NCBI GenBank assembly: GCA_902766695.1
Contig: CACXEY010000137.1
Span: forward strand, 1-36,015
Direction: 5' to 3'
Source: an uncultured bacterium
GTDB lineage: Bacteria; Verrucomicrobiota; Kiritimatiellia; CAIQIC01; Lenti-01
DNA: 36,015 bases
Shown here: positions 1,635 through 27,884 of the stretch, in pieces
Position numbering within the stretch: the first letter of the stretch is position 1
Layout: the number at the start of each line of letters is the position of its first letter
Position numbers and translations under genes: made by a program
The notes under the pieces: generated by a model
Databases searched by the model: none
Seen by the model: the letters and a program-made list of their open reading frames with translations, nothing else
Told to the model about the DNA's origin: nothing

Positions 1635-3917
1635 CTACGGCACGAGGAGGACGGGGGCGGAGGCGGATGATGGAGGGGGAGGCTCGGCTGGCGCCGGTGC
1701 CGGGGCAGTATTCGGGATGGCGGCCGGCAGGGCAACGGGATTGGCGGTAATGGAAATGGTGGCAGGAGACGCGGCCGGAACCGGAGCCGCCGCGGAGGTC
1801 GGAGCAGGGCCGGGAACGGATGGAGCGGCGGGTACGGATGCCGCCGATGCCGGGGCAGGCACGGGGTCGCGGGCGGAAGGCGGGGAAACAGGCTTGGCCG
1901 GTGCGGCGGATGCCGGCATCCCGGGCGTCTGGAGGCGGATGCCTTCGGTGGGGTTCGGGATGTCGAGGGTGCGGATTTCGCCGCGGGGGACGGCCGGGAT
2001 GTCGAGGCGCCCCTGCGCGGTAAAGCGGCCGTTGCTGTAGTTCAGGCGGTAGTAGGCGGTGGGCGTCGGGGGCATCGGCATCGGGCGCGTGGAGTCGCCG
2101 CGCTTGACCGTGAACGGCTTGCCGAGGGGGCGGCCGGCGCCGGACATCAGCGTCGCTTCGGCATCCATCATGCCGCCGATGTTGCGCAGGACGATCTGCG
2201 GCGCGGGCTTGAGCGTCGCGTGCAGCTTGGCGGAGGTGCTTTCGCCGGGGTCCATCGCGGAGAGGGATACCGGCTCGCATTGGTAGTCGGCATGGGCGGC
2301 GGTCCCCGTCAGGAGGGTGCGCCGTCCGGCGGGAACGGTCACCGTCGCGGTCTTGCCGGGGAGGATGGTCACGCCGTCGGCGGGGCTGGCCATGCCGGCG
2401 ACGCGCACGGCGACGGGACCGGTGTTCTGGAGGACCACCTCGGGATCGCCCTTGAGTTCGGCGCGCAGCACGAGGTTGGACCGGTCGCCGTAGAAGAGCG
2501 GCGGGATGTCGGTATGCCCGGCCTTGTGGAAGGAGGAGCGGAAGCGGTAGGCAACGGCCAGCGCCTTGTGGGCGGGCACGGGGATGCCGATGCCGGTCTC
2601 CCCCGCCTGCAACGTCAGCTTCGTCGCGCTCCCCCAGCCGCCGCCGGCCGGCGTGACCGTCACGTCCACCGGCATCATCTCCGGGTTGTTCAGCACGATC
2701 CCCGGCTGCTCCTTGCGCACGGAATCGAACCGCACGTGCGCCTCGGCGGCCTGCTGTCCCGAGACGGTCCAGTCCCGCGCGTAGGGATCGGATTCCGCGG
2801 GTTCGCCGTTGAGATGGATCGGCGTCCCGGGCCGCACGACGAGGCACAGCAGGACGGTGCCGCCGGCCGGAAGCGTCGCCGTGCGGGTTTCGTCCCCCAC
2901 CATGACCTTGACGGCCACGGCCACGGAGCCCGCGTTTTCCAGGAGGTTGGTGGTCAGCCCCAATCCGCCGCCCTCCTCCCCGGACGCGGCCTGCAGCACG
3001 AACCATGCCGGGCGCCCGCCGGATGCGGAAACGGGCCAGGGGAAGACGCGTTCATCCCCTTCTCCCGCCTCATCGCCGTCCGCGACCGGGGCATAGGCGA
3101 TCTGCAGGCGGCTGTCGGCCGGGAACACGCCCTCGACGCGGTTGGTGCCGTCGAGGCGGACGGGCAGCGGCGACTCGAACACGTCCGGCAGCGGCTTTCC
3201 GTCGGCCCCGGCGATGCGCCGGATTTCGAGCGGCCGAGCGTCCCCGGAAAGGAACACGGCCTGGAGCGCGGTCGGCCAGTCCGCGGCGAAGAGGTCCCGG
3301 TAGGCGGCCTGGAGATCGCGCCCGGCGGCGAACCCGCGCATCTGTCCCTTCCGGGCGCAGCGGTCGAACGCTCGCCGGAGGGCCGCGAATTCCGCCGCGT
3401 ACTTCGTCCCCGGGAACCCCACCACCATGCTCTGCCCGCCGAACACCGTGCGCATCTGCTCCAGGATGGCTTCCATCCCGTCCCGCCACGCCGCCTCGTT
3501 CGTGCGGGCCAGCCCGTCGAGCCGGACCGCGAAGCGCCCGCCGAGGTCCGTCCAGCGCAGCAGATGGAACCGCTCCACGGGCACCGGGGCGGAGCGTACC
3601 GTCTCCTTCAGCTTCAGCTCGCACGACCGCCATCCCGGCACCAGCACCGTCACCGACGCCGCGGCGCCGCCCGCCCCCTCCCCCGTCCACACCGCGTCGC
3701 CCGCCCGGACGTCCGCCGCCCGGAACAGCCCCTCCGCCTCGCGCGGCAGCGTCACCGTCGCGGCCCCGGCGGTTCTGGCCACCTCCGAGCGCTCCGCGAA
3801 GATTTCGAGGGCCCAGTCGCCCTCCCGGCCGATGCCAATCATCGAGGCGAAGGCCTGTGTTGCGAGGACCCAGGCGGCCAGCGCCGCCATCCATGCGGTT
3901 TTCGTCGTGCGTTTCAT
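1635..3917 (-). CDS. Secreted repeat protein with Pro/Ala-rich C-terminal tail, unknown function
   Basis: 760 residues. Start at ATG 3917 because it begins a clear signal peptide (MKRTTKTAWMAALAAWVLA..FA) and AAAGGA lies upstream; an in-frame TTG at 3941 would only add a charged extension. The first 320 residues match nothing I recognise. From about residue 390 there are several 70-90 residue units starting with patterns such as PGIVLNNPEMMPVDVTV, PEVVLQNTGPVAVRV and PQIVLRNIGG, which resemble in layout (hydrophobic-N-x, then VxV, then a Gly turn) the extracytoplasmic units of the kinase at 5788-9501, though much more diverged. The last 100 or so residues are almost entirely Pro, Ala, Ser and Val, a likely unstructured or cell-wall-spanning tail. 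It follows the kinase-sensor paralogue by 33 nt in the same direction, so it is probably co-expressed. Function unknown. Confidence 0.8.
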   Translation of the reverse strand: MKRTTKTAWMAALAAWVLATQAFASMIGIGREGDWALEIFAERSEVARTAGAATVTLPREAEGLFRAADVRAGDAVWTGEGAGGAAASVTVLVPGWRSCELKLKETVRSAPVPVERFHLLRWTDLGGRFAVRLDGLARTNEAAWRDGMEAILEQMRTVFGGQSMVVGFPGTKYAAEFAALRRAFDRCARKGQMRGFAAGRDLQAAYRDLFAADWPTALQAVFLSGDARPLEIRRIAGADGKPLPDVFESPLPVRLDGTNRVEGVFPADSRLQIAYAPVADGDEAGEGDERVFPWPVSASGGRPAWFVLQAASGEEGGGLGLTTNLLENAGSVAVAVKVMVGDETRTATLPAGGTVLLCLVVRPGTPIHLNGEPAESDPYARDWTVSGQQAAEAHVRFDSVRKEQPGIVLNNPEMMPVDVTVTPAGGGWGSATKLTLQAGETGIGIPVPAHKALAVAYRFRSSFHKAGHTDIPPLFYGDRSNLVLRAELKGDPEVVLQNTGPVAVRVAGMASPADGVTILPGKTATVTVPAGRRTLLTGTAAHADYQCEPVSLSAMDPGESTSAKLHATLKPAPQIVLRNIGGMMDAEATLMSGAGRPLGKPFTVKRGDSTRPMPMPPTPTAYYRLNYSNGRFTAQGRLDIPAVPRGEIRTLDIPNPTEGIRLQTPGMPASAAPAKPVSPPSARDPVPAPASAASVPAAPSVPGPAPTSAAAPVPAASPATISITANPVALPAAIPNTAPAPAPAEPPPPSSASAPVLLVP

Positions 3918-3950: not shown

Positions 3951-5729
3951 TTACTGCCCCGGATACCGGGAAAAGAACTCCTTCCAGCTCCCGCTCTTCT
4001 CCGTGGTCTCGACAATCCGCTGCCATTCCGCGTTGCGGACGCCGCGCTTCGCGGCAACGGCCGCCGACCACTCGGACCAGGGGACGGCATCTCCGGCAAT
4101 CCCGTCAACGTCCACAGACCGGGCGAAATGGCCAACCTCCTGCAACGCCCTGTAAATGGCCTCGATTCTTCCGGCAATCCCGTGCTCAATCCACTCTTCG
4201 TCGAGGTACATCTTCGCCTTGTTCAACCGATTCGCCAAGGCATCCCGGAGCCAATCCTCCAAATCCGGTTCCGGTCCCGGCCCCGGCATCCGTTTCAGGT
4301 CTGCCGTGCAATCCAGCACGACAGGCTTGTCCCAGGCGCACTCGACCGTTTCGTCCGTCGCCTCGTAGCTGGCGGGATTCTGTTCCGCATCGTTGCGCTT
4401 GTCGGGCCTGGCCCGGGTCCGCACCCGGTAGCGCCCCGCCTCTGGAAACTCCACCGTCCGCTCGCCCCCCTTCTCCAGCATGAACTCCTCCACCACCGCC
4501 CCGTCGGCGGCGCGGCTCACCGTGACCACCATCCCCCGGCGGGGCGTCACGTTGCGTACCCGCAACGACGGAGGCGTCCGGCGCGCGGGAACAATCGTTT
4601 CAACGCAGCGCTTGTTCCACTCGTAGGGACCGAGTTCGCGGCTCCCGTCCAGATATCCGTCCTCTTCGGCTTCCCATTCGATGGAAAACTTCCGTTCCAC
4701 GCACACCGGGACCGCCCGTGTCTCTCCCGCGCCCAGGGACAGCGGTTCGCGCCGTCCGGCCACGCGCACGACCAGCGCCACGTCCCCGCCGTTGACAAGC
4801 TGCACGACCGGATACGCCCGCTTCGTCAGTTTCAAGTCCACGGCGACCATCTCGCCGCCCTTCGGGGTCACATTGCGAGCCATGGCCGTCTCGGGCGAAT
4901 TCTCGGCATATTGCTGCTTGGTGGCATGGCAACGGAGAACGGTTTCCACGCCGGGACGGACGCAAATCGGCTTCGTCGCCCCCGGTGCCATCTGGACTAC
5001 GCCTTCGTACCCACCCTTCAGCTCCACCACCACGTCCACATCGTTCGGATTGCCCAGCCGCAGGACGGTCTGCGCGTCCGAAAGCGCCTTCCGAGCCGGG
5101 AGCAACTCGACCGTGGCGGCCCCCGTCACTGTCGTCTCCCCAGTTTCGTACAGTCCGCTGTAGGGTGCGTGGAAACGGACCGTTGTCGCCACTCCGTCCC
5201 GCACGGAACGCACCACGATCGTTCCGGGGGCCACCTCGAAGCGGTTGTCCAGCCCGCCCGTCGTCTCGACGAAAATGGGCGTGTCGAGCGGATTGTGGAA
5301 GCGCAGCGTGGCCGCTGCGCCCCCAACCGGCGCCTTCGCAACGGGTATCGGCGCCCCTGGGGCGGCGGCCGGAGCATCCGTCCGCCGGGCCAGCACCAAT
5401 GCCACGTCGTTGGTCATGCCAGCGACCGACGCGCGGAGCGCCAGATGGCGAGGATTCGCCTCGGTTTCCAAGTATCCATCGCTCCACGGTGGCCAGTAGG
5501 CAATCTCGGTCGCGGAGCCTGCCGCGACCGCTTGCACAACGGCACCTCCATCATCGACCAGGAACTCCCGCTCGAATCCGCCCGTTGCTCGGACCTGGAT
5601 GTCCGCCCCCGAACGGTTCACGAAGCGGAACGCCGCAGGCGCAAGGACGTCCGTCTGGGCCAACCCCGTACCCGCCCAGAAGGCCGCCGCCAGAAGTGCC
5701 GTGATTCCAATCACTCCGATCCGCTTCAT
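3951..5729 (-). CDS. Stand-alone secreted paralogue of the kinase extracytoplasmic domain
   Basis: 592 residues from ATG 5729, which is preceded by GGAGAAGGAACAGGAC and starts a signal peptide (MKRIGVIGITALLAAAFWAGTGLAQ). An in-frame TTG at 5768 is less likely. Residues 139-592 align along their whole length with residues 785-1237 of the upstream kinase; shared blocks include ATKQQYAENS, TKRAYPVVQLVNGGDVAL, RTPPSLRVRNVTPRRGMVV and RGVRNA-WQRIVE. No kinase domain or internal membrane span is present, so it is probably periplasmic or surface-exposed. It has the same beta-rich 80-90 residue units as the kinase, then a C-terminal module of about 120 residues predicted helical (unit boundaries are my estimate). 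It lies 58 nt downstream of the kinase. It may be a decoy, co-receptor or ligand-binding partner of the kinase (inference). The domain family is not one I can name. Confidence 0.88.
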   Translation of the reverse strand: MKRIGVIGITALLAAAFWAGTGLAQTDVLAPAAFRFVNRSGADIQVRATGGFEREFLVDDGGAVVQAVAAGSATEIAYWPPWSDGYLETEANPRHLALRASVAGMTNDVALVLARRTDAPAAAPGAPIPVAKAPVGGAAATLRFHNPLDTPIFVETTGGLDNRFEVAPGTIVVRSVRDGVATTVRFHAPYSGLYETGETTVTGAATVELLPARKALSDAQTVLRLGNPNDVDVVVELKGGYEGVVQMAPGATKPICVRPGVETVLRCHATKQQYAENSPETAMARNVTPKGGEMVAVDLKLTKRAYPVVQLVNGGDVALVVRVAGRREPLSLGAGETRAVPVCVERKFSIEWEAEEDGYLDGSRELGPYEWNKRCVETIVPARRTPPSLRVRNVTPRRGMVVTVSRAADGAVVEEFMLEKGGERTVEFPEAGRYRVRTRARPDKRNDAEQNPASYEATDETVECAWDKPVVLDCTADLKRMPGPGPEPDLEDWLRDALANRLNKAKMYLDEEWIEHGIAGRIEAIYRALQEVGHFARSVDVDGIAGDAVPWSEWSAAVAAKRGVRNAEWQRIVETTEKSGSWKEFFSRYPGQ

Positions 5730-5787
5730 GTCCTGTTCCTTCTCCGTTTTCCGCCCGGTTCCGTTCAACCCAGTACTCGCGTGTCAG

Positions 5788-8700
5788 TCACGGGAACCGC
5801 CCGAAGAACTCCGTCCAGCTCCCGCTCGCCTCGGTGGCCTCGACGATCCGCTGCCAGTCCGCGTTGCGGACGCCGCGCTTCGCCTCGACGGCCGACGCCC
5901 AGCCGGTCCACGGGACATCCTGCCCGGCGATTCCGTCAGCATCCACGAACCGTGCGAAATTGCTGGCCTCCTGCAAGGCTTTTTCGATGGCCTCGACGGT
6001 TCCTTTGGCGCTGTGTTCAACCCAGTTTTCGTCGACCCGCATCTTCGCGGCGGTCAACTTGCTCAACAAGGCATCCCGGACCCAATCCCCTTGGTCCGGC
6101 GCGGGCACGCCCTGTCCCGGATTCCGCTTCAGGTCCGCCGAGCAGTCCAGGACGACGGGCTTGCCCCAGGTGCACTCGACCGTTTCGTCCATCGCGTCGT
6201 ATCCGGCGGGATTCTGCTCCGTGTCGTTGCGCTTGTCGGGCTTGGCCTTGGTTTGGACGCGGTAGCGGCCCGCCTCGGACAGTTCCAACAGCCGCTCGCT
6301 TCCTTTCTCCAACGTGAACTCCTCCACCAAAGAATCGTCGGAGGCGCGGGTCACGGTCACGACCATCCCCCGGCGGGGCGTCACGTTGCGCACCCGCAGG
6401 GACGGCGGCGTCCGGCGCTCGGGGACGATGGTCTCGCGGTACCGCCCGTTCCACTCGTAGGGACCGATGTCGCGCCCGCCCTCCAGATACCCCGCCTCGT
6501 CGGCCTCCCATTCAATGGGCATCGTCCGGCCAACGGGCATCGAAAGCGCCTGGACGGCGCCCGCGGCCAGAGGATACTCCTTCCCGTTCACGCGCACGGT
6601 CAGCGCCACGTCCCCGCCGTTGACGAGTTGCACGACCGGATACGCCCGCTTCGTCAGCGTCAAGTCCACGGAGACCGTCTCGCCGCCCTTCGGGGTGGCC
6701 GCGGCGGGCTTGGCCGTCGCGGACGAGTTCTCGGCGTACTGCTGCTTGGTGGCGTAATAACGGAGGTCGGTCTTCACGCCGGGCCGGACGGAGACTTCCT
6801 TTGTTGCCCTCGCTTCCACCAGAACTTCGTCGTCCCGACCGCCCGACAGCACGACCACCACGTCCACCTCATTCGTGTTGGACAGTCGCAGGACGGCCGC
6901 GTCCACCCGGGCAACCGGCTTCAGGTCCAGTTCCACCACCTCGAAGGCACCGGCCCGCACGGTCACGTTCGTCTCCCCTGTTCCGTACTGGTTGCTCCAC
7001 GGCGTGTGGAAACGGACCGTGGTCGGCACGCCCGCCCGAACGGCGCGGAGCACGGTTCCGCCCGGTTCCACCTCGAACCCGCCGTCAAACCCGCCCGACA
7101 CTTCGACGGAGACGGTCTCCCTGGGGAGGGGGTTGTGGAACCGCAATTCGGCCTGGGCAACCGCGTTGTCGTCTTTCCTCTGCGTGAGGTTCAGCACGAT
7201 GCGTTCGGTCCCCCCGGCCTTCGGCGTCGCGTTCGTCACCGCTGGATTAGCCTCCGTCTCCGCATACTGGTCGGTGAACCGGACGTAGTAGCTGATGCTC
7301 GTTTCCCTCCCGGGCGGGGCCTCCTTGGAGACCGGGGATTTCTTCTCCACCGGGAAGCTGGCCTCCAATCCCCCCTTCGTCACGACTTGCACGGGCGTGT
7401 CGTTGGGGTTGACGAACAGCAGGGTGGCCGTCGCCTGCGAAGGCGTCGCCTTGTGCTTCAGCGTGATTTCCACCATGCGGGTCTCCCCGGCGGCTGGCGC
7501 GTTCGTGCTGAAAGGGGCGCTCTCGTAATCGTCGCTATACGGCGTCTCGACAACGTATTCGATTTTTGTACCGGCCTTGAAGGTACGCCGGACATTGCCT
7601 TTGGCGGGAATCGGGATGGGCGCCGTTTTCCATTCGCCGCGCGGGGTAATCCGGATGTCCGCGGAAAGCGTGTTGGTGAAAACGAGCAATGCCGGTTCCC
7701 CCCGCGGCGCTTCTTTCCTGCGCACCAAAGTCAACTCCACGACATTGGTTCCGCCGGGGGCTGGGGCCACGGCAGGTTGAGGTTTCGGCTTTTCGTATTC
7801 TTCCGCACCCCAGCTCGGCTCGTACGACACCCTGGCATTCAGTCCACGCGCCACTGGCTTTTCGACACTGTCCTGCTCCGGAACTTCGAAAGCCTGCCAT
7901 CCCCCTGGCACCGCTTCGACCCAGATCGGCCTGTCCGTGCGGTTGACGAACCGGAGAACGGAGGGAACGGACGGCTCGAGCGCGGGAGTCCCGGCGGTAC
8001 GGGAAGGAACGGGTTCCGGATTCACAGGGGCAGGTGGTGTCGACACCGGCTCCGCTGGCCCGGAGTAGATCAGCCGGCAGATGTCGCCGAGCAGCCCCTC
8101 GTCCCCGGCATGGTTCGGGATGAAATCGGTGGACGCGGCGAAGAAGGACGCCCCCAGCAGCACCAGGAGCAGCACGGCGAAGGCCAGCCAGACCTTGCCC
8201 GCGGCGGATTTACGGCCGCCCTTCTTCCCGGAGGAAGCGGCCGCCGGCCGGCCGATGGCGGCCTCGAAACGGGTGCCCATCGTCCCGACGGTACCGACGG
8301 TCCCCACGGTCCCGACGGTCCCGTCGCGCACGGAAAAGGTCGGCAGGCTGACCGCGGTCCGCGGTTCATCCCCCGCGCCCGCCCCGAACGCCCCGCCGCC
8401 GGTTCCCGTGACGCCGCCGCCGGTTCCGCCGCCCGTGTTCCCGCCGCCGGTCGGCGCCCCGTCCCACATCCCGGTATGTCCCGCGCCGCCCGTCGGCGCG
8501 CGCACGGTGCCGGGGTCGGACGGGAACCCGGCATCCAGCATCACGTCGGTCGGCGGCGGATTCGTCGGGTCCATGATCGTCGAGTCGTCGTACTCCGGCT
8601 CCTCCGCGCTCTCCTCCGGCTTCGCGTACGGCATGTGGGCCTTGAGCTTCTGCAACCGCGCGATCAGGTCCGCCGGGGTCTGCGGCCGCGCGGCCGGGTC

Positions 8701-9501
8701 CTTCGCCATCATGCACGCGACGAGTTTGGCCGTGTCCGAATGGATTTTCCGGGCCTTGGGCTTGGAGCGCACGTCCGGCGGCGGCTTGTCGGTGATGACC
8801 TGCGCGAGCACCTGCACCGGCGTCTCTCCCTGGTACGGGCGTTCGCCGCTCAGCAGCTCGAAGAACACGGTCCCCAGGCTGTAGATGTCGCTGCGCGTGT
8901 CCACCATGCGGGCGTCTTTCGCCTGCTCCGGCGACATGTAGGCCGGCGTCCCGAACACCGCCTCCCGCAGCGTCAGCTGGGTCTCCTCGTTCCTCGAACT
9001 CTTCGCGATGCCGAAGTCCGTCAGCTTGCACACCCCCGCCGCGTTGTACAGGATGTTCGCCGGCTTGATGTCGCGGTGCACCATCTGCGTCTCGTACGCC
9101 TTGTCCAGCGCCAGCGCGATCTGCTCGACCACCGCGATCGCTTCCGCCTCCGGCAGCGGCCCGTGCGCCCGCAAGCGGTTCGCCAGCGACGCCTGCATCC
9201 GCTCCATCGCGATGTAGTACAGGTTCTGCTTCGAGTCGTACCCCGTCTCGTACACGCTCACCCAGTGCGGATGCCGGATGCCGCCCGCCAGCCGCGCCTC
9301 GCGGATGAACCGCGCCACGTCGCCGCCGGGACGGTTCGATTCGCCCCGGAACATCAGCACCTTGAGCGCCACCTCCAGGCCGGTCCCTTCCTGGACCGCC
9401 AGGTACACGGTGGCCATCCCGCCGTGCCCCAGCAGACGCTCGATGCGGTACTTGCCCAGCAGGCTGCCGGGCATCAGCTCCGAATGGCTCGATCCGGGCA
9501 T
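5788..9501 (-). CDS. Transmembrane Ser/Thr protein kinase (Hanks type) with large extracytoplasmic sensor
   Basis: 1237 residues. Kinase domain about 18-290: glycine loop GHGGMATVYLA (25-35), catalytic Lys47 in VALKVL, HRDIKPANIL (Asp144), DFGIAK (Asp162), and the APE position as SPE (190-192). All key residues are present, so it should be active. A Gly/Thr-rich juxtamembrane linker (300-436) includes a GTVGTVG tandem tract and Asp-flanked Thr such as DDSTIMDPTN. One membrane span at about 437-455 puts some 780 residues outside: about six 80-90 residue beta-type units (starts near 514, 603, 691, 784, 868, 954), then a 120-residue C-terminal module. The topology recalls PknB-type receptor kinases but with unrelated sensor units. 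Start ATG 9501 has GGGAG 7 nt upstream. With the PP2C at 10808 and nearby FHA proteins it forms a complete phospho-Thr circuit. The ligand is unknown. Confidence 0.95.
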   Translation of the reverse strand: MPGSSHSELMPGSLLGKYRIERLLGHGGMATVYLAVQEGTGLEVALKVLMFRGESNRPGGDVARFIREARLAGGIRHPHWVSVYETGYDSKQNLYYIAMERMQASLANRLRAHGPLPEAEAIAVVEQIALALDKAYETQMVHRDIKPANILYNAAGVCKLTDFGIAKSSRNEETQLTLREAVFGTPAYMSPEQAKDARMVDTRSDIYSLGTVFFELLSGERPYQGETPVQVLAQVITDKPPPDVRSKPKARKIHSDTAKLVACMMAKDPAARPQTPADLIARLQKLKAHMPYAKPEESAEEPEYDDSTIMDPTNPPPTDVMLDAGFPSDPGTVRAPTGGAGHTGMWDGAPTGGGNTGGGTGGGVTGTGGGAFGAGAGDEPRTAVSLPTFSVRDGTVGTVGTVGTVGTMGTRFEAAIGRPAAASSGKKGGRKSAAGKVWLAFAVLLLVLLGASFFAASTDFIPNHAGDEGLLGDICRLIYSGPAEPVSTPPAPVNPEPVPSRTAGTPALEPSVPSVLRFVNRTDRPIWVEAVPGGWQAFEVPEQDSVEKPVARGLNARVSYEPSWGAEEYEKPKPQPAVAPAPGGTNVVELTLVRRKEAPRGEPALLVFTNTLSADIRITPRGEWKTAPIPIPAKGNVRRTFKAGTKIEYVVETPYSDDYESAPFSTNAPAAGETRMVEITLKHKATPSQATATLLFVNPNDTPVQVVTKGGLEASFPVEKKSPVSKEAPPGRETSISYYVRFTDQYAETEANPAVTNATPKAGGTERIVLNLTQRKDDNAVAQAELRFHNPLPRETVSVEVSGGFDGGFEVEPGGTVLRAVRAGVPTTVRFHTPWSNQYGTGETNVTVRAGAFEVVELDLKPVARVDAAVLRLSNTNEVDVVVVLSGGRDDEVLVEARATKEVSVRPGVKTDLRYYATKQQYAENSSATAKPAAATPKGGETVSVDLTLTKRAYPVVQLVNGGDVALTVRVNGKEYPLAAGAVQALSMPVGRTMPIEWEADEAGYLEGGRDIGPYEWNGRYRETIVPERRTPPSLRVRNVTPRRGMVVTVTRASDDSLVEEFTLEKGSERLLELSEAGRYRVQTKAKPDKRNDTEQNPAGYDAMDETVECTWGKPVVLDCSADLKRNPGQGVPAPDQGDWVRDALLSKLTAAKMRVDENWVEHSAKGTVEAIEKALQEASNFARFVDADGIAGQDVPWTGWASAVEAKRGVRNADWQRIVEATEASGSWTEFFGRFP
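8276..8320 (-). repeat. 9-bp tandem repeat encoding a Gly-Thr-Val tract in the kinase linker
   Basis: About five near-perfect copies of a 9-nt unit (plus strand ccgacggtc with variants), encoding GTVGTVGTVGTVGTMG at kinase residues 395-410. In-frame by construction (9 nt = 3 codons), so copy-number change would keep the frame. The Thr residues sit in the cytoplasmic juxtamembrane segment. Confidence 0.8.
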
Positions 9502-9734: not shown

Positions 9735-10811
9735 TCACCCGACCGCCGGCACCGCCAGACCCAGCTGGCGAGCCTGGGCCGCGAACGTCGGCTCCGCCTT
9801 CATCTCGAACGCCCCCTCCAGCCGCCCGTCGTCCAACCGCCGGTCCGTCCGCCACGCCACCAGGTCGCGCAGCCGGTAGTTCCCGCCGTCCAGCGGCAGC
9901 ACCTCCGACACCGCCACGATCTTGCGGCTCCCGTCCGACAGCCTCGCCGTGTGCACCACCACGTCCACCGCCGACGCCACCTGCGCCCGCAGCGCCGACA
10001 GCGGGATCTCGATCCCGCTCAGCAGCGCGCACGTCTCCAGCCGGAACAGGCACTCCAGCGGCGCGTTCGCGTGGATGGTCGACATCGACCCCGCGTGCCC
10101 CGTGTTCAGCGCCTGCAGCAGGTCCAGCGCCTCCCCGCCGCGGATTTCGCCGATCACCAGCCGGTCCGGACGCAACCGCAGCGCCGAGAAGATCAGGTCG
10201 CGGATCGTGATCTCCCCCTTCCCGTGCGCGTCCGGCTTGCGCGTCTCGAAGGGCACCACGTGCTCCTGCTGCAACTGAAGCTCGCTCGCGTCCTCCAGCA
10301 CCAGGACCCGCTCGTCCGGCGCGATGAACGAGCTCAGCACGTTCAGCACCGACGTCTTGCCCGAGCTCGTCCCGCCCGACACCATCACGTTCTTGTGCAT
10401 CGCCACGATCGTCCGCAGCAGCTCCATCCCCTCCTCCGACAGGCTCCCGTACCGCAGCAGCTTCGCCGCGTCCAGCGTCTCCCGCTTGAACTTGCGGATC
10501 GACACCACCGTCCCGCACCGGCTCAGCGGCGGGATCACCGCGTGCACGCGCGAGCCGTCCGGCAGCCGCGCGTCCAGCTGCGGATGCGCCTCGTCCAGCT
10601 GGCGGCCCACCGACTTCGCGATGTTGGCCGCCGCGGCCCGCAGGGCCGGCTCGCTCGCGAACACCGCGTCCGTCGCCTGCAGCTTGCCGCCGCGCTCGAT
10701 GTACACCTTCCCGGGGCCGTTGACCATGATTTCCGAGACGTCGTCGTCCTCCAGGTACCGCCGGATCGGCTCCAGGAAGAGGACCAGGAACGATGCGGGC
10801 GCGGGGCTCAC
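9735..10811 (-). CDS. Second TadA/CpaF-family secretion ATPase (no FHA domain)
   Basis: 358 residues. Belongs to the type II/IV secretion ATPase family (GspE/VirB11/CpaF). N-terminal element VSEIMVNGPGKVYIERGG (25-42), RLPDGSRVHAVIPP (82-95), Walker A GGTSSGKT (146-153), acidic Asp box VLEDASELQL (171-180), Walker B RLVIGE (217-222), His box STIHANA (244-250). All motor motifs are intact. Start is GTG 10811, the GTGA overlapping the stop of the phosphatase; no ATG gives a better N-terminus. It is shorter than the FHA-TadA at 28765-30528, lacking both the FHA domain and the long N-terminal helical region. It could power a second direction of movement (retraction versus extension) or a second TadE-type fibre, since a second TadE lies just upstream (inference). 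Cytoplasmic, presumably docking on TadB/TadC. Confidence 0.93.
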   Translation of the reverse strand: MSPAPASFLVLFLEPIRRYLEDDDVSEIMVNGPGKVYIERGGKLQATDAVFASEPALRAAAANIAKSVGRQLDEAHPQLDARLPDGSRVHAVIPPLSRCGTVVSIRKFKRETLDAAKLLRYGSLSEEGMELLRTIVAMHKNVMVSGGTSSGKTSVLNVLSSFIAPDERVLVLEDASELQLQQEHVVPFETRKPDAHGKGEITIRDLIFSALRLRPDRLVIGEIRGGEALDLLQALNTGHAGSMSTIHANAPLECLFRLETCALLSGIEIPLSALRAQVASAVDVVVHTARLSDGSRKIVAVSEVLPLDGGNYRLRDLVAWRTDRRLDDGRLEGAFEMKAEPTFAAQARQLGLAVPAVG

Positions 10812-11737
10812 GGCACGGCCTCCCGTTCGGCCATCTTGGAAAGGTGGTCGCTTTCCTCCACATCGAGCGGATCGAGCGTCTCCTCGTCCGGCGGCATCTC
10901 CTTCTTGACCCGCAGCAGGATGAGCGTGATGTTGTCCTTCCCGCCCCCGTCCAGCGCCCGCTGCAGCAGCAGGTCCGCCAGCAGCGGCAGCTCGCCCTGC
11001 CCGTCCTCCCGGAAGAGCCGTTCCATCGCCTCGTCGGGGATCATCCCGTACAGCCCGTCGGAGCAGACCAGGAAGAGGTCCCCCGGGCACAGCGCCAGCT
11101 CCGACCATTCCAGCTCGTGGCTGCTGGCCGTGCCGAGCGCGCGCGTCAGCACGTGTCCCAGCGCGCTGTTCTCCGCCCCGCCCTTGAGTTCCGCGCCCAC
11201 GGTGTGGTCCTGCGTCAGGCGGAACAGTTCCCCTTCGCGGAAGCAGTACGCCCGCGAGTCGCCCACGTGGCTGACCCACGCCCGGTCGCTCTTCCACGGA
11301 TCGAGCAGGAAGCACACCAGCGTGCTGCCCATCGTCTGGTACCGGTGGTCTTCCGCGTGCCGGTTGATGGCCTTGTTGGCCTCCTTCGCCGCCTGGAGAA
11401 CCCGGTATTTGCGTTCGCCGGGCGACTCCGTCTCGCTTTCCTTGAGCAACCGCCGCAACGCGTGCACCACGTACCGGCTGGCGATCTCGCCGGCCTCCCC
11501 GCCGCCCATCCCGTCCGCCACCGCGTACACGCCGTCCGACGGCATCCCCAGCAGCGCATCCTCGTTGTTGTCCCGTACCAAGCCCGGATGCGTCAGGCAC
11601 ACGTGCTCCACGCAGTCGAACCGCGACCGCACCGCCGCGGGCGCGGGCTCCGCCTCCGGCACCTGCGTCGGGGCATCCTCCGCCGCCGGCGGCACTTCCG
11701 TCGCTTGCTCTTGCTCGTTCACATTCTCGTCGCTCAT
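10808..11737 (-). CDS. PP2C-family Ser/Thr protein phosphatase
   Basis: 309 residues, soluble, cytoplasmic. PPM/PP2C motifs in order: RDNNED (55-60), ADGMGGG (74-80, metal Asp75), MGST (136-139), GDSRAY (159-164), TQDH (175-178), CSDGLYG (225-231), GGGKDNITLI (264-273). Metal-coordinating aspartates are all present, so it should be a Mn/Mg-dependent phosphatase like PrpC/Stp1/PppA. The first 37 residues are an acidic Pro/Ala/Glu tail absent from the minimal family members. It should remove phosphate from Thr/Ser targets of the kinase at 5788-9501, and so reset FHA-dependent interactions in the Tad apparatus (inference from context). The ATG overlaps the stop of the 39-codon ORF, and its stop overlaps the GTG of the second TadA, so translation is likely coupled. 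Confidence 0.96.
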   Translation of the reverse strand: MSDENVNEQEQATEVPPAAEDAPTQVPEAEPAPAAVRSRFDCVEHVCLTHPGLVRDNNEDALLGMPSDGVYAVADGMGGGEAGEIASRYVVHALRRLLKESETESPGERKYRVLQAAKEANKAINRHAEDHRYQTMGSTLVCFLLDPWKSDRAWVSHVGDSRAYCFREGELFRLTQDHTVGAELKGGAENSALGHVLTRALGTASSHELEWSELALCPGDLFLVCSDGLYGMIPDEAMERLFREDGQGELPLLADLLLQRALDGGGKDNITLILLRVKKEMPPDEETLDPLDVEESDHLSKMAEREAVP

Positions 11738-12972: not shown

Positions 12973-15900
12973 CTACGGCTTCCTGTTCCCGGTTCCGCCG
13001 CCGCCGCCACCGCCCATCTGGAGGATTTGCGTCCCGTTGCTCCCCCCGCCCTGCGACGGACGCATCCGGTTGATGATCCGCTCGCCCGCATCCCTCCCGA
13101 TGTCCACCACCTTCCCGATTCCCTTGCCCACCAGTTTCTCCAGGGCGGCCTGGAACTTGCCCAGCAGCTTGTCCGGAATCTTGATTCCGTGCTCGCCCAA
13201 CAGGTTCTTCAGCCAGTTCACCGCCTTGCCGATCCACTTCTGGGCGATTCCCGAAAGCCAATGCTGGAGCTTGTCCAGCCCGTAGTTCAGCGCGCTGACG
13301 GCCATGTCGCACAGCTTGTTCTGGGCCCATTCCGCCAGATTCCCGATCTTGTCCGACAGCGACCCGTTCCCCGTCAGGATTCCCCAGATTTCCTTCACCC
13401 CGCCGACTATCCACTTTCCGTCGATGCCCAGTATCCCGAACCACTTCTGCAGTTCCGGGTTCTTGGCGATCCACGAGTCCAGCTGTTTCGTCGCCCAGCT
13501 TTCCAGCTTTTGGACCGTCGTCGTCTTGATGGGCCCCCACACGTCCCCGCCGCCCTGGGCGTCCCCGCCGAAGCATCCGCCGATTGACGGCCCCTCCGGC
13601 CCATCGAAGCAGCCGCCGTCGGTTCCTTCCTCCCCGCCCGTCCAGTCCCCGAACAGTCCCCCTTCCTCCGCCATCTTCAGGATTTCCTCGACCGACGGCT
13701 CCCCTTCCCCTTCGTAGTTCCCCTCGATCAAATCGTGCAGGACCTGCTCCATCTCCAGCACCGTCTCCCCCTCCCCCAGCCCCGCGTCGATCATCAACGC
13801 CAGGGCCTGCTCGATCGGCGACTCCTCCCCCTCCGGTCCCTTCTCCTCTTGGGGCTTCGACGGCTCGTCCCCTTGAACCGGCCCCGCCGCGTTGGTGGAA
13901 ACGCTCGTCGTTCCGTTCGTGGATACATCCGTCGCCTCGTACGTCCCGTTCGTCGAAACGTCCGTCGTCTCGTACGTGGCGTTCGTGTAGACGCCGTAAG
14001 TCCCGTTCGTGGAGTCGCCCGGCCAGTACTCGTACCCCTGCTGCTGCTCCTGCTGCTGCGTCTGCGTGTCGGTGTGGATGTCCGGATCGTACTCCGTGTC
14101 GGGCCCCGGCCGCGGCTGGGGATCGAAGTCCGGCCAGTTGTCGACGATGATGTCGATCAAATCCGGCAAGTTGTCGAAAATCCAGGTCAGGATTGGATGT
14201 TCTCGGCGGAATTCCGCCTCGTCCGTTTCGTCATCCTGCGGCAGCTCCGTGCCCTTGTCCGCGGAAGGATCGTCCTCGTCGGCGTCCTCTTCCGTTTCTT
14301 CGGGACAGTCGCATCCGGCGTTGTAGGCATCGCACAGCGCATTGCAAGCCTCGATCAGGGCTGCCTCTTCCTCCATTTCGTAGTTGAACTCCTGCCAGTA
14401 CTGGTCCGAGTGGTTCTTCCAGATGGACCCCTCGTCGTCGCGGTTCAATTCGTATCCGAGCAGGATGATGTCCAGACCCGACGGCATCAGGTCCTTGAGG
14501 GTCAGGCGGGCGCTCTTCCCCATCACGCGGGAGAGTTTGGGCATGATCTTCTTGTTGAAGTTGCTCCTCGCCTCCGCCGCGCGGTTGAAGGATTTCCAGA
14601 TGTTGTCGTTCTCCGCGGCGACCCGCCGTTTGAGGGCGGTGAGTTCCTTTTCCAGCTGGTCCAGGTCGGGATTGCTTCCCGTCCACCCCGGCTGCGTCGA
14701 AAGGACCATCTTGTTCCCGGCGATGGCCGCTTCGACTTTTTTGATCAATTCTTCCCGCCCCGCGATGTACTTTTCGATGTCCGCCCGCTTCCCCGCTTCG
14801 ATTTTCAGCTCGTGCTTGAGGTTTTCCCGCTGGATGCCGCCCACCTTGTCGGCGATGCTCCCGAGGGTTTTCCAGGTGGTCTCGCACCCGCTTTCGACGG
14901 TATTGGCCAGTTCCACGGCCTGGTGCGCATCCTCCAAGCTCGTCCTGTATTCATCGCTCTGGAGGATGTCCATCACCTCGGCGTAAAGCCCCGGAGCTTC
15001 CTCGGCCAACCGGACGAGGCCGTAGGTGTCCCCCAGGACCGGCACGTAGTTGAGCAGGGTGTCGGTCGTCTTCAGCCGGCGCAACCAGCCTTCGTCGCGG
15101 ATCAGGCGCAATGCCCAATACGCATCCCCCTGCTTCTTCTTGAAATCATCGTAGGCCGCCTTCCACGCGGCTTGCTGCCTGGCCGCTTCGTCCGGACACC
15201 GGCACGGCGGCGGCGGGTGCGAATACCCTTCGGCGATGTCCCAGATGTTGTTGTAGAGCGTCTCCCGTTTGGATCGCGTGCCCCACCATTCGCGTCCCTC
15301 GATCCTCTTGGGCGCCAGTGCCGCCTTGTAGTCGAATTCCTCGGCGTCTTTCGCCCGTTCGCGTTCGGCCCTCTCCCGGACGTAATCCTCCAGGCGCCGC
15401 ATGACTGCGACCAAGACCCGGCCTCCGGGCGTCAGGGACTGGATGGCTTCCGCGGCCGCCCTGGAATACTTCAGGAGGATGGGCTGCAATTCTTCTTCGA
15501 TCGGCTTCACCTTGGCGTTCCGCCACCCTTCCTGCTCCCGCATCTCCGCCCCATCGTACATCCGGGTCCGTAGCATGTTCTGGATCCCGACCGTGATGTC
15601 GTGCGCCGCCACGGCATCCCCCATGTCCCCCTCGTTCCGGACGGTATACAGCGGCCCCACGTGGTTCCCGGCCATGGAAACGACATCGTATTCATTCCGG
15701 ATGTTGACGGTGTTCGCCGCGGCCTGTTTGATGAGCTCCGGCCGGGTCCGGGCCAAGGTCTCCTCCGAAAGCCCGGCGGCGTTCAACGTCCATCCTTTCA
15801 CCCTGTCCCCGATGGGATTCGAAGCCATCGCCCAGTTCGCGAGCCCCCCTCCCAACGAATGCCCCGTCACGTCGATGTGTATCTCCTGGCCGTCCGCGTT

Positions 15901-16563
15901 CTTCTTCCCTTCCGTGTTCCGGATGACGTCGCCCAGGAGTTTCTGCGCGGCCTGGTACTGCCGGGTGTCGTCCCCCATCAGTTGCCCCATGTCCGTTTCG
16001 ATCCAGTCTGTCAGGAAATCGCCCGGGTTGCTGCTTTCCGATCCCCGGAAGGCCACGACTAGGTTGCCGTCTTCCTTGTTCCGGAAAATCCTCGCGGCGA
16101 ATCCGCCGCCGAACTCGATGACCCCGTCCTGCTTGACGGCGCCCGTCTTGAAATACCCCGGGTCGACCAGGGATTCGAGATCGGCCCCCGTGACCGGCTC
16201 GTAGCTGGGCGGATACTGTCCGGCCCGGTCCTTGTATGCGGCGGCATCCAGCTGTGCCATGACAATGGCCTTGTTCTTCTGCTCGGCCGTCAACCCGGTT
16301 TCGAAGTTTTCGCACGTCTCCGGGTAGGCGACCTTGCTACAATCCTCCACCGGGGTGCTGAACGTTTCCAGGGCGACTTTCGTGCTTCCGTCGGTCAGGG
16401 TGTACCCGATGTACGTTGCCTGGTTGAAACGGGAAAGATTGTAGGCCGTGTTCCGTATCTTCGTGCGGTCCTCCAAGGACAACCCCTGTCCTGAAACAGG
16501 AAGAACGGTCGCCAGCATGGTCAACCCGGCCACGAACGCTGCTGCTTGATTCGCCCTTTTCAT
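12973..16563 (-). CDS. Large secreted lipase-like alpha/beta hydrolase (class 3 type)
   Basis: 1196 residues from ATG 16563; a GTG directly before it (16566) is equally close to the AAAGGG site. Signal peptide MKRANQAAAFVAGLTMLATVLPVSGQ. The hydrolase domain covers about 95-330: VVAFRGSES (oxyanion region), VTGHSLGGGLANWA with nucleophile Ser236, NEYDVVSM (Asp293) and VAAHDIT (His321), the complete triad order of class 3 lipases and DUF2974-type proteins. The following 870 residues include helical, coiled-coil-like segments (about 560-700), an acidic low-complexity stretch with paired Cys, 11-residue Thr/Asn repeats (about 850-890), a Trp-rich repeated helical region (LESWATKQLDSWIAKNPELQKWF; amphipathic) and a Gly-run C-terminus. 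It is embedded between TadG-like and TadE-like genes, so it may be exported by, or displayed on, the Tad apparatus (inference). Substrate unknown. Confidence 0.88.
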   Translation of the reverse strand: MKRANQAAAFVAGLTMLATVLPVSGQGLSLEDRTKIRNTAYNLSRFNQATYIGYTLTDGSTKVALETFSTPVEDCSKVAYPETCENFETGLTAEQKNKAIVMAQLDAAAYKDRAGQYPPSYEPVTGADLESLVDPGYFKTGAVKQDGVIEFGGGFAARIFRNKEDGNLVVAFRGSESSNPGDFLTDWIETDMGQLMGDDTRQYQAAQKLLGDVIRNTEGKKNADGQEIHIDVTGHSLGGGLANWAMASNPIGDRVKGWTLNAAGLSEETLARTRPELIKQAAANTVNIRNEYDVVSMAGNHVGPLYTVRNEGDMGDAVAAHDITVGIQNMLRTRMYDGAEMREQEGWRNAKVKPIEEELQPILLKYSRAAAEAIQSLTPGGRVLVAVMRRLEDYVRERAERERAKDAEEFDYKAALAPKRIEGREWWGTRSKRETLYNNIWDIAEGYSHPPPPCRCPDEAARQQAAWKAAYDDFKKKQGDAYWALRLIRDEGWLRRLKTTDTLLNYVPVLGDTYGLVRLAEEAPGLYAEVMDILQSDEYRTSLEDAHQAVELANTVESGCETTWKTLGSIADKVGGIQRENLKHELKIEAGKRADIEKYIAGREELIKKVEAAIAGNKMVLSTQPGWTGSNPDLDQLEKELTALKRRVAAENDNIWKSFNRAAEARSNFNKKIMPKLSRVMGKSARLTLKDLMPSGLDIILLGYELNRDDEGSIWKNHSDQYWQEFNYEMEEEAALIEACNALCDAYNAGCDCPEETEEDADEDDPSADKGTELPQDDETDEAEFRREHPILTWIFDNLPDLIDIIVDNWPDFDPQPRPGPDTEYDPDIHTDTQTQQQEQQQGYEYWPGDSTNGTYGVYTNATYETTDVSTNGTYEATDVSTNGTTSVSTNAAGPVQGDEPSKPQEEKGPEGEESPIEQALALMIDAGLGEGETVLEMEQVLHDLIEGNYEGEGEPSVEEILKMAEEGGLFGDWTGGEEGTDGGCFDGPEGPSIGGCFGGDAQGGGDVWGPIKTTTVQKLESWATKQLDSWIAKNPELQKWFGILGIDGKWIVGGVKEIWGILTGNGSLSDKIGNLAEWAQNKLCDMAVSALNYGLDKLQHWLSGIAQKWIGKAVNWLKNLLGEHGIKIPDKLLGKFQAALEKLVGKGIGKVVDIGRDAGERIINRMRPSQGGGSNGTQILQMGGGGGGGTGNRKP
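13890..14012 (-). repeat. 33-bp tandem repeat in the lipase gene
   Basis: Encodes imperfect 11-residue units of the form TNGTYEATDVS (with variants TNATYETTDVS, TNGTTSVS). Units at the nucleotide level share cgtcccgttcgt and cgtacg blocks. The Thr/Ser/Asn-rich character suggests a flexible linker between the acidic middle and the C-terminal helical region. Confidence 0.7.
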
Positions 16564-16603
16564 CACGCAACACCCTTTCTCGCTTCTCGAAATCCCTTGT
16601 CCC

Positions 16604-22287: not shown

Positions 22288-22662
22288 TCACGGGACCGGC
22301 ATCGCAATCCCTTCCAGGAGCCGCTGCTGGGAATCCACCAGAGCGCGCCCCATCGTCCCCGTCCATCCCTTGTCGGCGTTGTAGAGCTCCAGATGCCACG
22401 CCGCGACGATCACCAGCGCCGTGAAGCAGCACAGCACCACGTACTCCATGAGCACGGATCCCTTGTTCCCGGAAACCGCACGCCGCGTGCCGGCCGGAAA
22501 ACCGCATGTTTCGTCCCTGAACCGGGAGGGCCCGGCTCCGTCCGGGCCGGGTCCCCGGGCATCGGCCGGAACGATCCGGGCACGTGCCTTGCACACGGCC
22601 GCGGCGGAGCGCGGCCCGCCCGGCGCGGGGTCCAATCTCCCGGATCCGGCCTGGACCGTCAT
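22288..22662 (-). CDS. Flp-like pilin with a long leader interrupted by a paired-hairpin repeat
   Basis: 124 residues from ATG 22662, which overlaps the upstream FHA gene stop (ATGA). The prepilin site is clear: SGNKG followed by SVLMEYVVLCCFTALVIVAAWHLE (Gly68 at -1, Glu-Tyr at +5/+6). The mature part is only about 56 residues, the normal Flp size. The 68-residue leader is abnormal, since Flp leaders are usually 10-30 residues; most of it is encoded by repeat copy B (22522-22623), inserted without breaking the frame. Between the repeat and the processing site there is no ATG, GTG or TTG codon in frame, so the leader is translated or the gene is weakened. It ends 36 nt before the next pilin. 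Confidence 0.75.
   Translation of the reverse strand: MTVQAGSGRLDPAPGGPRSAAAVCKARARIVPADARGPGPDGAGPSRFRDETCGFPAGTRRAVSGNKGSVLMEYVVLCCFTALVIVAAWHLELYNADKGWTGTMGRALVDSQQRLLEGIAMPVP
22522..22623. repeat. Paired-hairpin dispersed repeat, copy B
   Basis: 102 bp in the opposite orientation to copy A (17776-17877). Hairpins: ggcccgg-ctccgt-ccgggcc (22529-22548) and ggccgcg-gcggag-cgcggcc (22597-22616). The loops are again complementary, with one G-U type wobble. It lies inside the reading frame of the pilin at 22288-22662, before the prepilin cleavage site. Confidence 0.85.
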
Positions 22663-25166
22663 GGCACGTCCCCCTTCGGCGCATGGCTGGCGTAGTACTC
22701 GCGCCATTCGTAGAAATAGTTCTTGTCGGGAATGCAGTTCTCCAGATACGCCACCAGCCCGTCCGATTCGGCCTGCGCGGCTCCGGTGTAGCCCCGGGCG
22801 AGTTCCCCGCGGATGGAATCGGCGGCCGCATGCTTCTTCTCGTCCCAGCGGGGCGAGACGACCAGCCAGAGCGCCCGCGCGAGCACGCCGTCTCGGTCCC
22901 CGCGCCAGCAGAACGGCTCGACGGTCTCTTCGAGCCAGTTGTCGCGCTGGCGGAGCAGGGTCAGGGCCCGGTCGTAATACTGCTTGAGGCGGTTGGGGCG
23001 CTTGCCCGGCAACGGGGCCAGACGCGTCGCCGCCGCCTTGAACAGCGGCTCCGCGTTCACGAAATCCACGAACGACTTGAGCTTCGCGTAGTCCTCGCGG
23101 GCCTGCCGCGCCACCGGGCAGAACATGTAGAGGGGCGGGTTTTCCAGGTCGCCGGGGGAAATGGCGAGGAAATCCTGCGCTTCTTCCCCGCGGGTCAGGA
23201 GTTCGTAGACGTACACGCACCCGAGGATTTCGTCGTAGACGCATCCGGGGATGGGCGTTTCGCCGCTCCAGCGGGGGGGCGGAGGCGTCCGCCAGTCGAT
23301 GAAACGCATCGCGTCCTGGATCGTCCCCGGACGGAGGAGGCGGGCGACGGCCGCCGGCGTCCCGTCGGGAGCGGTCATCCCCATCTTCGCGAAAGCGGAC
23401 AGGTGGATGTTCGTCAGGGCGCTCCGCGCGCGCCCGCAAAGCGAACCGTTCGCGGCTTCGAGCGCGGCTTGGTAGTCGCGGAAGAGGATTTCGTCGGTGT
23501 GGGTCGGGAAGGCCAGCTGCTCTTGCATGCGGGTCTCCCAACCCGGCTCCATCGCGGCGATGGCGTCCAGGTTGGCGTTGACGGTCTTCTCCGCCGCCAC
23601 GAGGTCGTCGAGCGCCAGCCACACCCGGTTGTATTCGTTCTCGGCCAGGGAACAGAAGCGCAACACCCGCTGCCCTTCCGCCTTCTGCTCTTCGATCCGC
23701 TCCTGCTTGTGCCGCAGGTCCGCCTCGTGCAGCTCCTGGATTTCCGCGCGGGCCGCCTGCGCCGGTCCCGACAGGATGTCCTGCCCTTTCAGGCGGGACA
23801 GGCTCTCCCGGACCTTTTTTTCCGCGGCGATGCCGGCGGTGATCTCCCCGGAAATGGCGCTCCCCGCCGCCCGGAGCGGATGCCACACGTCCTGGTATGC
23901 CGTGTTCACCGCGAGGAACTGCACGTTTTCACCGGACCCGGTTTCCGCCCCGAAGGCGATGGGCCAGACGGAGACCTGCATGGCCGGCTCGCGCTCGGCG
24001 TCCGCCAGGGCCTTCTCCCACGCGTCCCGGACGCCTGCCAGATCCGCCGACGACGAATAGGGGTCGGCCAGCGCCGTCCGCATGTCGAGATAGCCGTTCA
24101 GCAACCGCTCCACGCACTCCGCACGACGCTTGTGTTCGATGGCCGTGTCCGTGTTCCAGTCCCATTTCGACACCTGGGTGAACCCCTGCTGCGCCCAGAC
24201 CCATTTGCCGTTCCGCATGTGGTTCTGGATGGAATTCCACGCGATGGCGGTATTCTGCCAGTTCCGGATGGAAAGGGTCAGTTCCTGGATCTGGCGGGCG
24301 TAGGGGCCGCCGTGCCGGGCCAGCCGCGCCGCCCCCGTCAGGTGCAATGCTTCCTGGAAATGCCACTTCTCGGCCTGCCTCCGGGCCTGCTTGAGCAGAT
24401 GGTCCGCGCTCGGGTGCGCCGCGTTCCAGAAGAACCACCCCGCCAGGCACACCAGCACCGTCATCACCGCCACCGCGGCCCGCAGGCGGATGTTCGACGG
24501 CGTGTGCGCCGTGTTCTTGTCCCAGAACCGGAAGTCCACGTACGCCACCGACAGGATGTCCCCGTCCCGCAGCATGCGTTCGTTCGCCTTCAGCGGCACC
24601 CGGTTCACCCGCGTCCCGTTCCGGCTCTTCAAATCCTTGACCCAGCAGCTCCCGTCCCGCTTGCACGCCACTTCCGCATGCCGGTGCGACACCAGGTTGT
24701 CGTCGCACACGATGTCGCACGTCGGCGCCGATCCGATGATGCTGCTCTCCCGGTCGAGGTCGATCATCCGCCCCGCGTCGGCCCCGTTCAGCTGCTCCAG
24801 CCGGTGGTACTGGGCACGCTCGGCGTCCTTGTTCTCCGCCCGCAACGCCACCAGCACGCAGTCGCCGATCGACACCTGGTCCCCCGCGGCCAGGCACCAC
24901 CGCGCCACTTTCTCCCCCTTGCAGTACATCCCGTTCCGGCTCCCCGTGTCTTCCACCCACCACTTTCCCCGCTTCGCGAACAGCTTCGCGTGGTGGTTGC
25001 TCGCCGTCTTGTCCGTCGGCGGAATCCGCCACGTGCAGTCCGCCGCCCGGCCGATCGTCAGCTCCGGCGGCAGCTCCCGCGTCGTCCCTTCGCACAGCAC
25101 CCGGCCGTTCAGCTCCAGCCGGATTTCCAGCTCTTTTTTCGGGAATCCGATCTTGAACGGCTTCAT
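22659..25166 (-). CDS. Membrane protein with two cytoplasmic FHA domains and a large periplasmic region
   Basis: 835 residues from ATG 25166, which overlaps the stop of the preceding FHA gene (ATGA); the frame continues further upstream but that part only overlaps the other gene. FHA domain 1 about 38-108 (TIGRAADCTW..., SNHHA, DTGSRNG) and FHA domain 2 about 143-215 (SIIGSAPTCDIVCDD, VSHRHAEV, LKSRNGTRVN). Both keep the Ser/His and Asn residues for phospho-Thr contact, although the first domain has SNHHA in place of SRRHA. One membrane span at about 228-249, then about 585 residues of mostly helical periplasmic sequence with coiled-coil-like stretches (about 485-520). It probably recruits phosphorylated partners to the Tad base. 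FHA proteins are not part of the standard Tad set. No known enzymatic domain is seen in the C-terminal part. Confidence 0.9.
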   Translation of the reverse strand: MKPFKIGFPKKELEIRLELNGRVLCEGTTRELPPELTIGRAADCTWRIPPTDKTASNHHAKLFAKRGKWWVEDTGSRNGMYCKGEKVARWCLAAGDQVSIGDCVLVALRAENKDAERAQYHRLEQLNGADAGRMIDLDRESSIIGSAPTCDIVCDDNLVSHRHAEVACKRDGSCWVKDLKSRNGTRVNRVPLKANERMLRDGDILSVAYVDFRFWDKNTAHTPSNIRLRAAVAVMTVLVCLAGWFFWNAAHPSADHLLKQARRQAEKWHFQEALHLTGAARLARHGGPYARQIQELTLSIRNWQNTAIAWNSIQNHMRNGKWVWAQQGFTQVSKWDWNTDTAIEHKRRAECVERLLNGYLDMRTALADPYSSSADLAGVRDAWEKALADAEREPAMQVSVWPIAFGAETGSGENVQFLAVNTAYQDVWHPLRAAGSAISGEITAGIAAEKKVRESLSRLKGQDILSGPAQAARAEIQELHEADLRHKQERIEEQKAEGQRVLRFCSLAENEYNRVWLALDDLVAAEKTVNANLDAIAAMEPGWETRMQEQLAFPTHTDEILFRDYQAALEAANGSLCGRARSALTNIHLSAFAKMGMTAPDGTPAAVARLLRPGTIQDAMRFIDWRTPPPPRWSGETPIPGCVYDEILGCVYVYELLTRGEEAQDFLAISPGDLENPPLYMFCPVARQAREDYAKLKSFVDFVNAEPLFKAAATRLAPLPGKRPNRLKQYYDRALTLLRQRDNWLEETVEPFCWRGDRDGVLARALWLVVSPRWDEKKHAAADSIRGELARGYTGAAQAESDGLVAYLENCIPDKNYFYEWREYYASHAPKGDVP

Positions 25167-26987: not shown

Positions 26988-27881
26988 TCACATCCCCGAC
27001 TGCGCCATCTGGAAATACACCGGCACGCCGACCATGATGAACACCGCCGGCATCAGGAACAGCGCCGTCGGGAAAATCATCACCGAAGGCGCCCGCGCCG
27101 CCTGCTGCTCCGCCAGGTGGAACCGCTCGCGCCGCATGTCCTCGCCCTGCATCTTCATCGTCTCGACGATCGACGCGCCGACCTCGATGCCGTGCGTCAC
27201 CGCGTCCACGAACGACGTGAAGCTGTCCGTCTGCACCCGCAACGCCATCTCCTGCAGGGCTTCGATGCGGCTCTTGCCCAGTTCGCTCTGCCGCAGCATC
27301 GCGCCGAACTCCACCGGCAGCGGTCCGCCCATCCCGATGGACAGGTAGTAGCGGATGGCCGCGTTGAAATCCAGCCCCGCGCGCATCGCCGACCCGATCA
27401 GGTCGATGGCGAACGGCAGGCTCCGGATCAGCGCCTTCTGGCGTTTGACCGCCACGTCGGCGAGCTTCATCGTCGGATAGAACCATCCGCACGCCGCCGC
27501 CGCGCCCGCGAACAGCAGCGTCCCCCCGGGCGGCATCCCGAACAGGAAGAACGCCACCAGCATCCCCCCTCCCCCCAGCAGGCACAGCGCGAGCTGCGCG
27601 CCGGCGACGAGCGACGGCTTGATGTTCCAGTTCGCCAGCAGCAACTGCTTGCCGATCCGCTCCGCCCGTTCGGCGCCCAGCAGCAGCGAGTCCGGGCGGA
27701 TCCGGTCGGCGAACCACGTGAACAGCGGCTTCATCTTCCGGTACATCGCGGGCACGGAGCTCCCCATCGGCCCTTCTTCGTCCCGCGCCCCCGGCAGGTT
27801 CATCAGCAGGTCCGCGACCAGATACGGCACCAGCACGCACGCGAACGCCATCAGCAGGTTCCAGAACATTCCCGTCTCCAT
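26988..27881 (-). CDS. tadC: Tad pilus inner-membrane platform protein TadC
   Basis: 297 residues, T2SS protein F-type domain (about 150-290). Hydrophobic spans at about 5-27, 88-110, 112-135 and 268-290. Conserved platform sequence RSLPFAIDLIGSAMRAGLDFNAAIRYYLSIGMGGPLPVEFG and the C-terminal RAERFHLAEQQAARAPSVMIFPTALFLMPAVFIMVGVPV-like block (here RRERFHLAEQQAARAP) are typical of TadC. With TadB it forms the inner-membrane platform turned by the TadA ATPase. It starts 3 nt after the TadB stop. Ends immediately before the FHA gene. Confidence 0.95.
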   Translation of the reverse strand: METGMFWNLLMAFACVLVPYLVADLLMNLPGARDEEGPMGSSVPAMYRKMKPLFTWFADRIRPDSLLLGAERAERIGKQLLLANWNIKPSLVAGAQLALCLLGGGGMLVAFFLFGMPPGGTLLFAGAAAACGWFYPTMKLADVAVKRQKALIRSLPFAIDLIGSAMRAGLDFNAAIRYYLSIGMGGPLPVEFGAMLRQSELGKSRIEALQEMALRVQTDSFTSFVDAVTHGIEVGASIVETMKMQGEDMRRERFHLAEQQAARAPSVMIFPTALFLMPAVFIMVGVPVYFQMAQSGM

Positions 27882-27884
27882 CGC

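Follow-up and report, generated by a model that had tools for sequence, protein, structure and literature searches.

The question raised by this locus is why the gene for a transmembrane protein kinase should have as its neighbour one for an exported protein that looks like a copy of the kinase's sensor. The window, a complete contig of 36,015 bases from a genome of 3.04 Mb, carries the genes at issue (A for the copy, B for the kinase and S for a further exported protein) all on the minus strand, together with a Tad-like gene cluster. Contamination or alien DNA was considered and rejected, the GC content (0.67) and tetranucleotide profile being within the scatter of the same genome's other contigs.

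A kinase and an exported paralogue of its ectodomain

The features of the three genes are as follows.

1635–3917, minus: S, exported protein of 760 residues, 57% amino acid identity to that of the relative (see below)
3951–5729, minus: gene A, exported paralogue of the kinase ectodomain, 592 residues; signal peptide, five β repeats and a C-terminal helical domain
5658–5729, minus: signal peptide of A, Sec/SPI type without a lipobox Cys (by inspection)
5385–5648, minus: repeat A1, counterpart of kinase repeat B3; 35% amino acid identity, synonymous sites saturated
4302–5324, minus: repeats A2–A5, counterparts of B4–B7; 59%, 61%, 66% and 77% identity, respectively
4803–4898, minus: candidate conversion tract of about 95 nt, 22/22 synonymous codons identical (p about 0.02)
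3954–4301, minus: C-terminal helical domain of A, counterpart of that of the kinase; 65% identity
5788–9501, minus: kinase B, transmembrane Hanks-type Ser/Thr kinase, 1237 residues
8677–9450, minus: kinase domain of B (Pfam Pkinase, E = 7e-48), motifs HRDIKPAN, DFG and SPE intact
8569–8589, minus: juxtamembrane (Y)DDSTIMD of B, kept in the relative inside an otherwise diverged linker (alignment)
8131–8193, minus: single transmembrane segment of B, about residues 437–457 (by inspection)
6136–7977, minus: β repeats B1–B7 of the ectodomain, about 85 residues each
5791–6135, minus: C-terminal helical domain of B

The Pkinase domain, catalytic motifs and transmembrane segment mark B as a Hanks-type transmembrane Ser/Thr kinase, in which the kinase domain is followed by a linker, the membrane segment, seven β repeats and the C-terminal helical domain. 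The conserved juxtamembrane DDSTIMD is a candidate pThr-x-x-Asp site for FHA binding. A search of PDB sequences with a profile of the ectodomain produced nothing but a chance antibody match (E = 0.3).

The listed open reading frame of gene A begins with TTG at 5768. The ATG at 5729, which has AAGGA just upstream, is a better start and gives the 592-residue protein, with the signal peptide MKRIGVIGITALLAAAFWAGTGLA|Q. The frame is open throughout, with no stop or frameshift, and to judge from gene spacing A sits in an operon-like run. Its product matches nothing in Pfam even at E ≤ 10, nor in NCBIfam at E ≤ 0.01.

The relationship of A to B is clear. BLASTP aligns residues 30–590 of A with 690–1237 of B at 57% identity (E = 0), and over the membrane-distal part of the ectodomain identity is about 59% and collinear repeat by repeat, off-register pairs of repeats scoring far lower. 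Kinase repeats B1 and B2, nearest the membrane, have no counterpart in A. The original prediction had aligned the C-terminal 453 residues of the kinase with the body of A; that alignment is real and its coordinates correct, but its limit was misplaced since homology runs one repeat further towards the N-terminus, into the saturated A1–B3 pair.

Origin and age of the duplicate

No further copy of A or of the ectodomain was found in the same genome. Local tandem duplication, as originally proposed, is the well supported and simplest origin of A: the two genes are adjacent and collinear, the sequence is otherwise single-copy in the genome, and the corresponding junction is empty in the relative. 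That relative, the one further genome in which the locus was found, is the goat-rumen Kiritimatiellae metagenome-assembled genome RGIG3480, which belongs to another genus and is 65% complete. Its gene order of PP2C phosphatase, CpaF ATPase, kinase and S is the same as here, and just 29 nt separate the kinase stop from the start of S, with the junction itself intact and A missing; nor was A found elsewhere in this 65% complete genome. The pair is therefore not conserved, an outcome that had been named beforehand as counting against a functional partnership, and A is evidently not needed for the system in RGIG3480.

Between A and B the core dS is 0.58 (0.47–0.72) with dN of 0.26, although all dS values given here are rough because codon usage by itself produces about 50% same-codon matches. 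Between this genome and RGIG3480, orthologue dS, subject to the same roughness, is 0.55 for the kinase domain, 0.68 for CpaF, 0.72 for the FHA–CpaF fusion, 1.01 for the PP2C phosphatase and 1.00 for S. Since the core value is near these, the duplication would be approximately as old as the split between the genera, or else older and homogenised since.

Gene conversion and strong constraint had both been offered as reasons for the likeness of A and B. The check proposed with them, on synonymous divergence along the pair, showed it to be uneven, with identity not uniformly low. Repeat A1 has 11/30 identical synonymous codons and the remainder of the alignment 196/281 (Fisher p = 0.0005), and the best change point of synonymous identity falls at A148/B792 (p = 0.003), near the start of the 453 residues first aligned. 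Both of the 29-nt identical tracts reported earlier were recovered, and the 22/22 tract overlaps the one at 4801–4829. As proof of conversion, however, these runs fail: under a shuffle preserving the amino acid pattern, a longest run of 29 nt is ordinary (P = 0.40), and two such runs are borderline (P = 0.05). On the mosaic of synonymous identity and the 22/22 tract, partial homogenisation of A and B is possible but weakly supported.

Strong constraint, on the other hand, can be set aside. Compared across the two genera, amino acid identity is 84% in the kinase domain (dN 0.12) and drops to 29% in the ectodomain (dN 0.90), which is the fastest-evolving part of the kinase. With such rapid divergence, the resemblance of A to B should reflect shared recent history instead.

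The substitution pattern also bears on whether A does anything at all. It could be a recent by-product of duplication, under relaxed selection and without a fixed role, and its presence in one genome only agrees with this, as does a dN/dS of about 0.45, which is not stringent. Nevertheless, the frame is intact and retains a good ribosome-binding site and signal peptide at a dS by which decay would be usual for a copy without use. We regard this explanation as quite improbable; the dN/dS ratio indicates that A is under moderate purifying selection.

Phyletic distribution

The ectodomain family is narrowly distributed. Among 346 genomes of the class it was found in its own genome and RGIG3480 only, and in a 388-genome sample of the phylum in its own genome only. 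Of two further scans of genome contigs, one was empty and the other gave the ectodomain in RGIG3480 only; viral contigs contained none. The ectodomain, S and kinase B are all missing from a genome of the same genus that is rated 100% complete. So far, A thus appears to be lineage-specific, being found in one genome of one Kiritimatiellae lineage.

A base rate for neighbouring paralogues of this kind was estimated from other kinases. In a sample of 57 bacterial Ser/Thr kinases with tails of at least 150 residues, we sought kinase-less paralogues of the tail on the same strand in flanks of up to 8 kb, and found no genuine example. The sole locus flagged, L024, with two open reading frames, proved on inspection to contain another kinase and a kinase fragment at a contig end.

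The ectodomain varies in repeat number as well, with seven repeats here (5788–9501) and five in the relative (L005, 9731–12763); repeat count and sequence shift quickly while the kinase domain stays well conserved. Two other members of the taxonomic family (L120 and L121, in G006 and G009) possess an FHA–CpaF ATPase cluster, and no match to kinase B or the ectodomain was found within 20 kb around these clusters.

Protein S and the repeat family

In hhalign, the profile of the ectodomain family matches that of S with a probability of 95% (E = 2e-8); in four controls, run with further profiles of two sequences each taken from this cluster, the probability was at most 0.5%. The ectodomain and S profiles contain two or three sequences each, so the placing of S as a remote member of the repeat family is only suggestive. 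If correct, it implies that the kinase was accompanied by a secreted repeat protein first and that A was added later. S has a long, Pro/Ala-rich C-terminal tail that is absent from the relative's S. Its structure model (pLDDT 35) offers no usable fold.

This kinship would also suit a structural role, in which kinase ectodomain, A and S are scaffold parts of the Tad-like machine or of the cell surface, and A adds length or copies. The predicted repeats of A do resemble β-sandwich stalk and adhesin modules. However, the model is only moderate (pLDDT 68, pTM 0.29), and its Foldseek matches are to generic β-sandwich repeats, with TM-scores of at most 0.3 among the hits listed. Furthermore, A retains the C-terminal helical domain of the kinase, which is untypical of a plain spacer. 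We consider a structural role improbable.

The Tad-like gene cluster

The FHA-rich cluster (9735–36015), upstream of the kinase, includes the following genes.

9735–10811, minus: CpaF/TadA-type secretion ATPase, 90% amino acid identity to that of the relative
10808–11737, minus: PP2C-type phosphatase, 79% identity to that of the relative
22659–25178, minus: protein with two FHA domains
25163–26986, minus: FHA-domain protein
26988–28760, minus: two T2SSF/TadB-TadC-like proteins
28765–30528, minus: FHA–CpaF/TadA fusion ATPase (FHA and T2SSE)
30539–32086, minus: secretin, RcpA/CpaC-like
32097–32831, minus: RcpC/CpaB-like protein, match below the curated cut-off

The same contig also encodes a prepilin peptidase and TadE-like and TadG-like proteins. 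The components that characterise a Tad (type IVc pilus) system are accordingly present, namely CpaF ATPase, TadB/C, secretin, CpaB/RcpC (sub-threshold), TadE and prepilin peptidase; no pilin gene was identified in the cluster. By inspection, the residues that bind phosphothreonine are largely in place, Arg being kept in three of four FHA domains and Ser-x-x-His in all four. Also inside the cluster is a protein of 1197 residues with a DUF6792/lipase-like match (12973–16566), whose match in the relative covers just its C-terminal 140 or so residues.

Comparison with known systems

Control by a kinase, a phosphatase and FHA proteins is well known for the T6SS. In its threonine phosphorylation pathway (PpkA, PppA and Fha, with TagR or RtkS), as here, a transmembrane Ser/Thr kinase, a PP2C phosphatase and FHA proteins are encoded with a secretion machine, and an exported protein (in the T6SS pathway, TagR or RtkS) is encoded beside the regulators. 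The machine differs, being Tad-like here, and no T6SS core matches were found among the proteins scanned from the gene cluster. RtkS is periplasmic, its gene is linked to fha and pppA, and it binds the periplasmic domain of PpkA, whose stability and activity depend on it (PMC6082577). PpkA, in turn, is described as controlling T6SS assembly through an FHA protein (PMC6082577; PMC3953482).

The machine itself resembles the Kil Tad-like apparatus of Myxococcus xanthus (PMC8460266), with which the present cluster shares a Tad core, several FHA proteins (here 22659–26986) and an FHA-fused CpaF ATPase (28765–30528). Kil, however, has a single ATPase and no TadG, whereas here there are two CpaF-type ATPases, a Tad/TadG-like match, a PP2C phosphatase and a kinase. 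The main text of the Kil paper mentions neither kinase nor phosphatase, although it proposes a signalling cascade for the FHA-rich Tad-like machine (PMC8460266).

Two other comparisons are more distant. The PASTA kinases Stk1/PknB and the phosphatase Stp1 are the best NCBIfam matches of the kinase and phosphatase here, both below curated cut-offs. Membership of the PASTA family was rejected for B, as NF033483 scores 264 bits against a cut-off of 450, over the kinase part only, and the ectodomain has no PASTA match. The T7SSc/T7SSe clusters (TscD/TscF, TseJ; PMC11217815) likewise join a transmembrane kinase, a PPM phosphatase and FHA to secretion, but belong to the WXG100/EssC system of Gram-positives, a machine unrelated to the Tad-like one here.

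Possible function of A

Taken together, the gene content suggests a Tad-like (type IVc pilus) machine under threonine-phosphorylation control. The periplasmic repeats of kinase B would sense a signal from the envelope or the machine, and the kinase would then phosphorylate Thr sites to be read by the FHA proteins and the FHA-fused ATPase, so controlling assembly; the PP2C phosphatase would undo the phosphorylation. Since A appears to keep the binding surface of the receptor while lacking the output domain, it may act in the periplasm on the kinase's own partner. It might do so by forming heteromers with the kinase ectodomain or by binding the kinase's ligand, for which S is a candidate, and in either case would shift the threshold of the kinase. 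That A is a periplasmic paralogue tuning B, through the same partner or by heteromerisation, is a function we infer from its architecture and location and hold tentatively, at a little below an even chance. The pairing of RtkS with PpkA offers an analogue for such modulation.

A could, alternatively, be a soluble decoy which binds ligand without output, competes with the kinase and raises its threshold. The absence of kinase domain and membrane anchor from a protein 59% identical to the homologous part of the receptor is what a decoy would be expected to show. The ligand is hypothetical, though, and because A lacks the membrane-proximal repeats B1 and B2 the binding site may lie outside it. 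A pure decoy seems to us to have a small chance of being correct, and we favour A as a modulating partner since the kinase and the secreted repeat protein S are common to both genera. In the fuller mechanism, the exported copy of the sensor, by which the kinase of a Tad-like machine would be tuned, arose recently by tandem duplication and has been kept alike by partial gene conversion within an ectodomain family that diverges fast; this is rather doubtful as a whole.

The component parts of the locus are of known kinds, and it is their arrangement that is new, resting on one genome. As far as we have searched, it is new for a locus of this sort, probably controlled by phosphorylation and combining FHA-bearing Tad components with a transmembrane kinase and a PP2C phosphatase in one cluster, to include a soluble protein paralogous to the sensor of its Hanks kinase. 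A may offer a testable case of a bacterial receptor evolving its own soluble modulator, with the empty site of RGIG3480 as a natural control.
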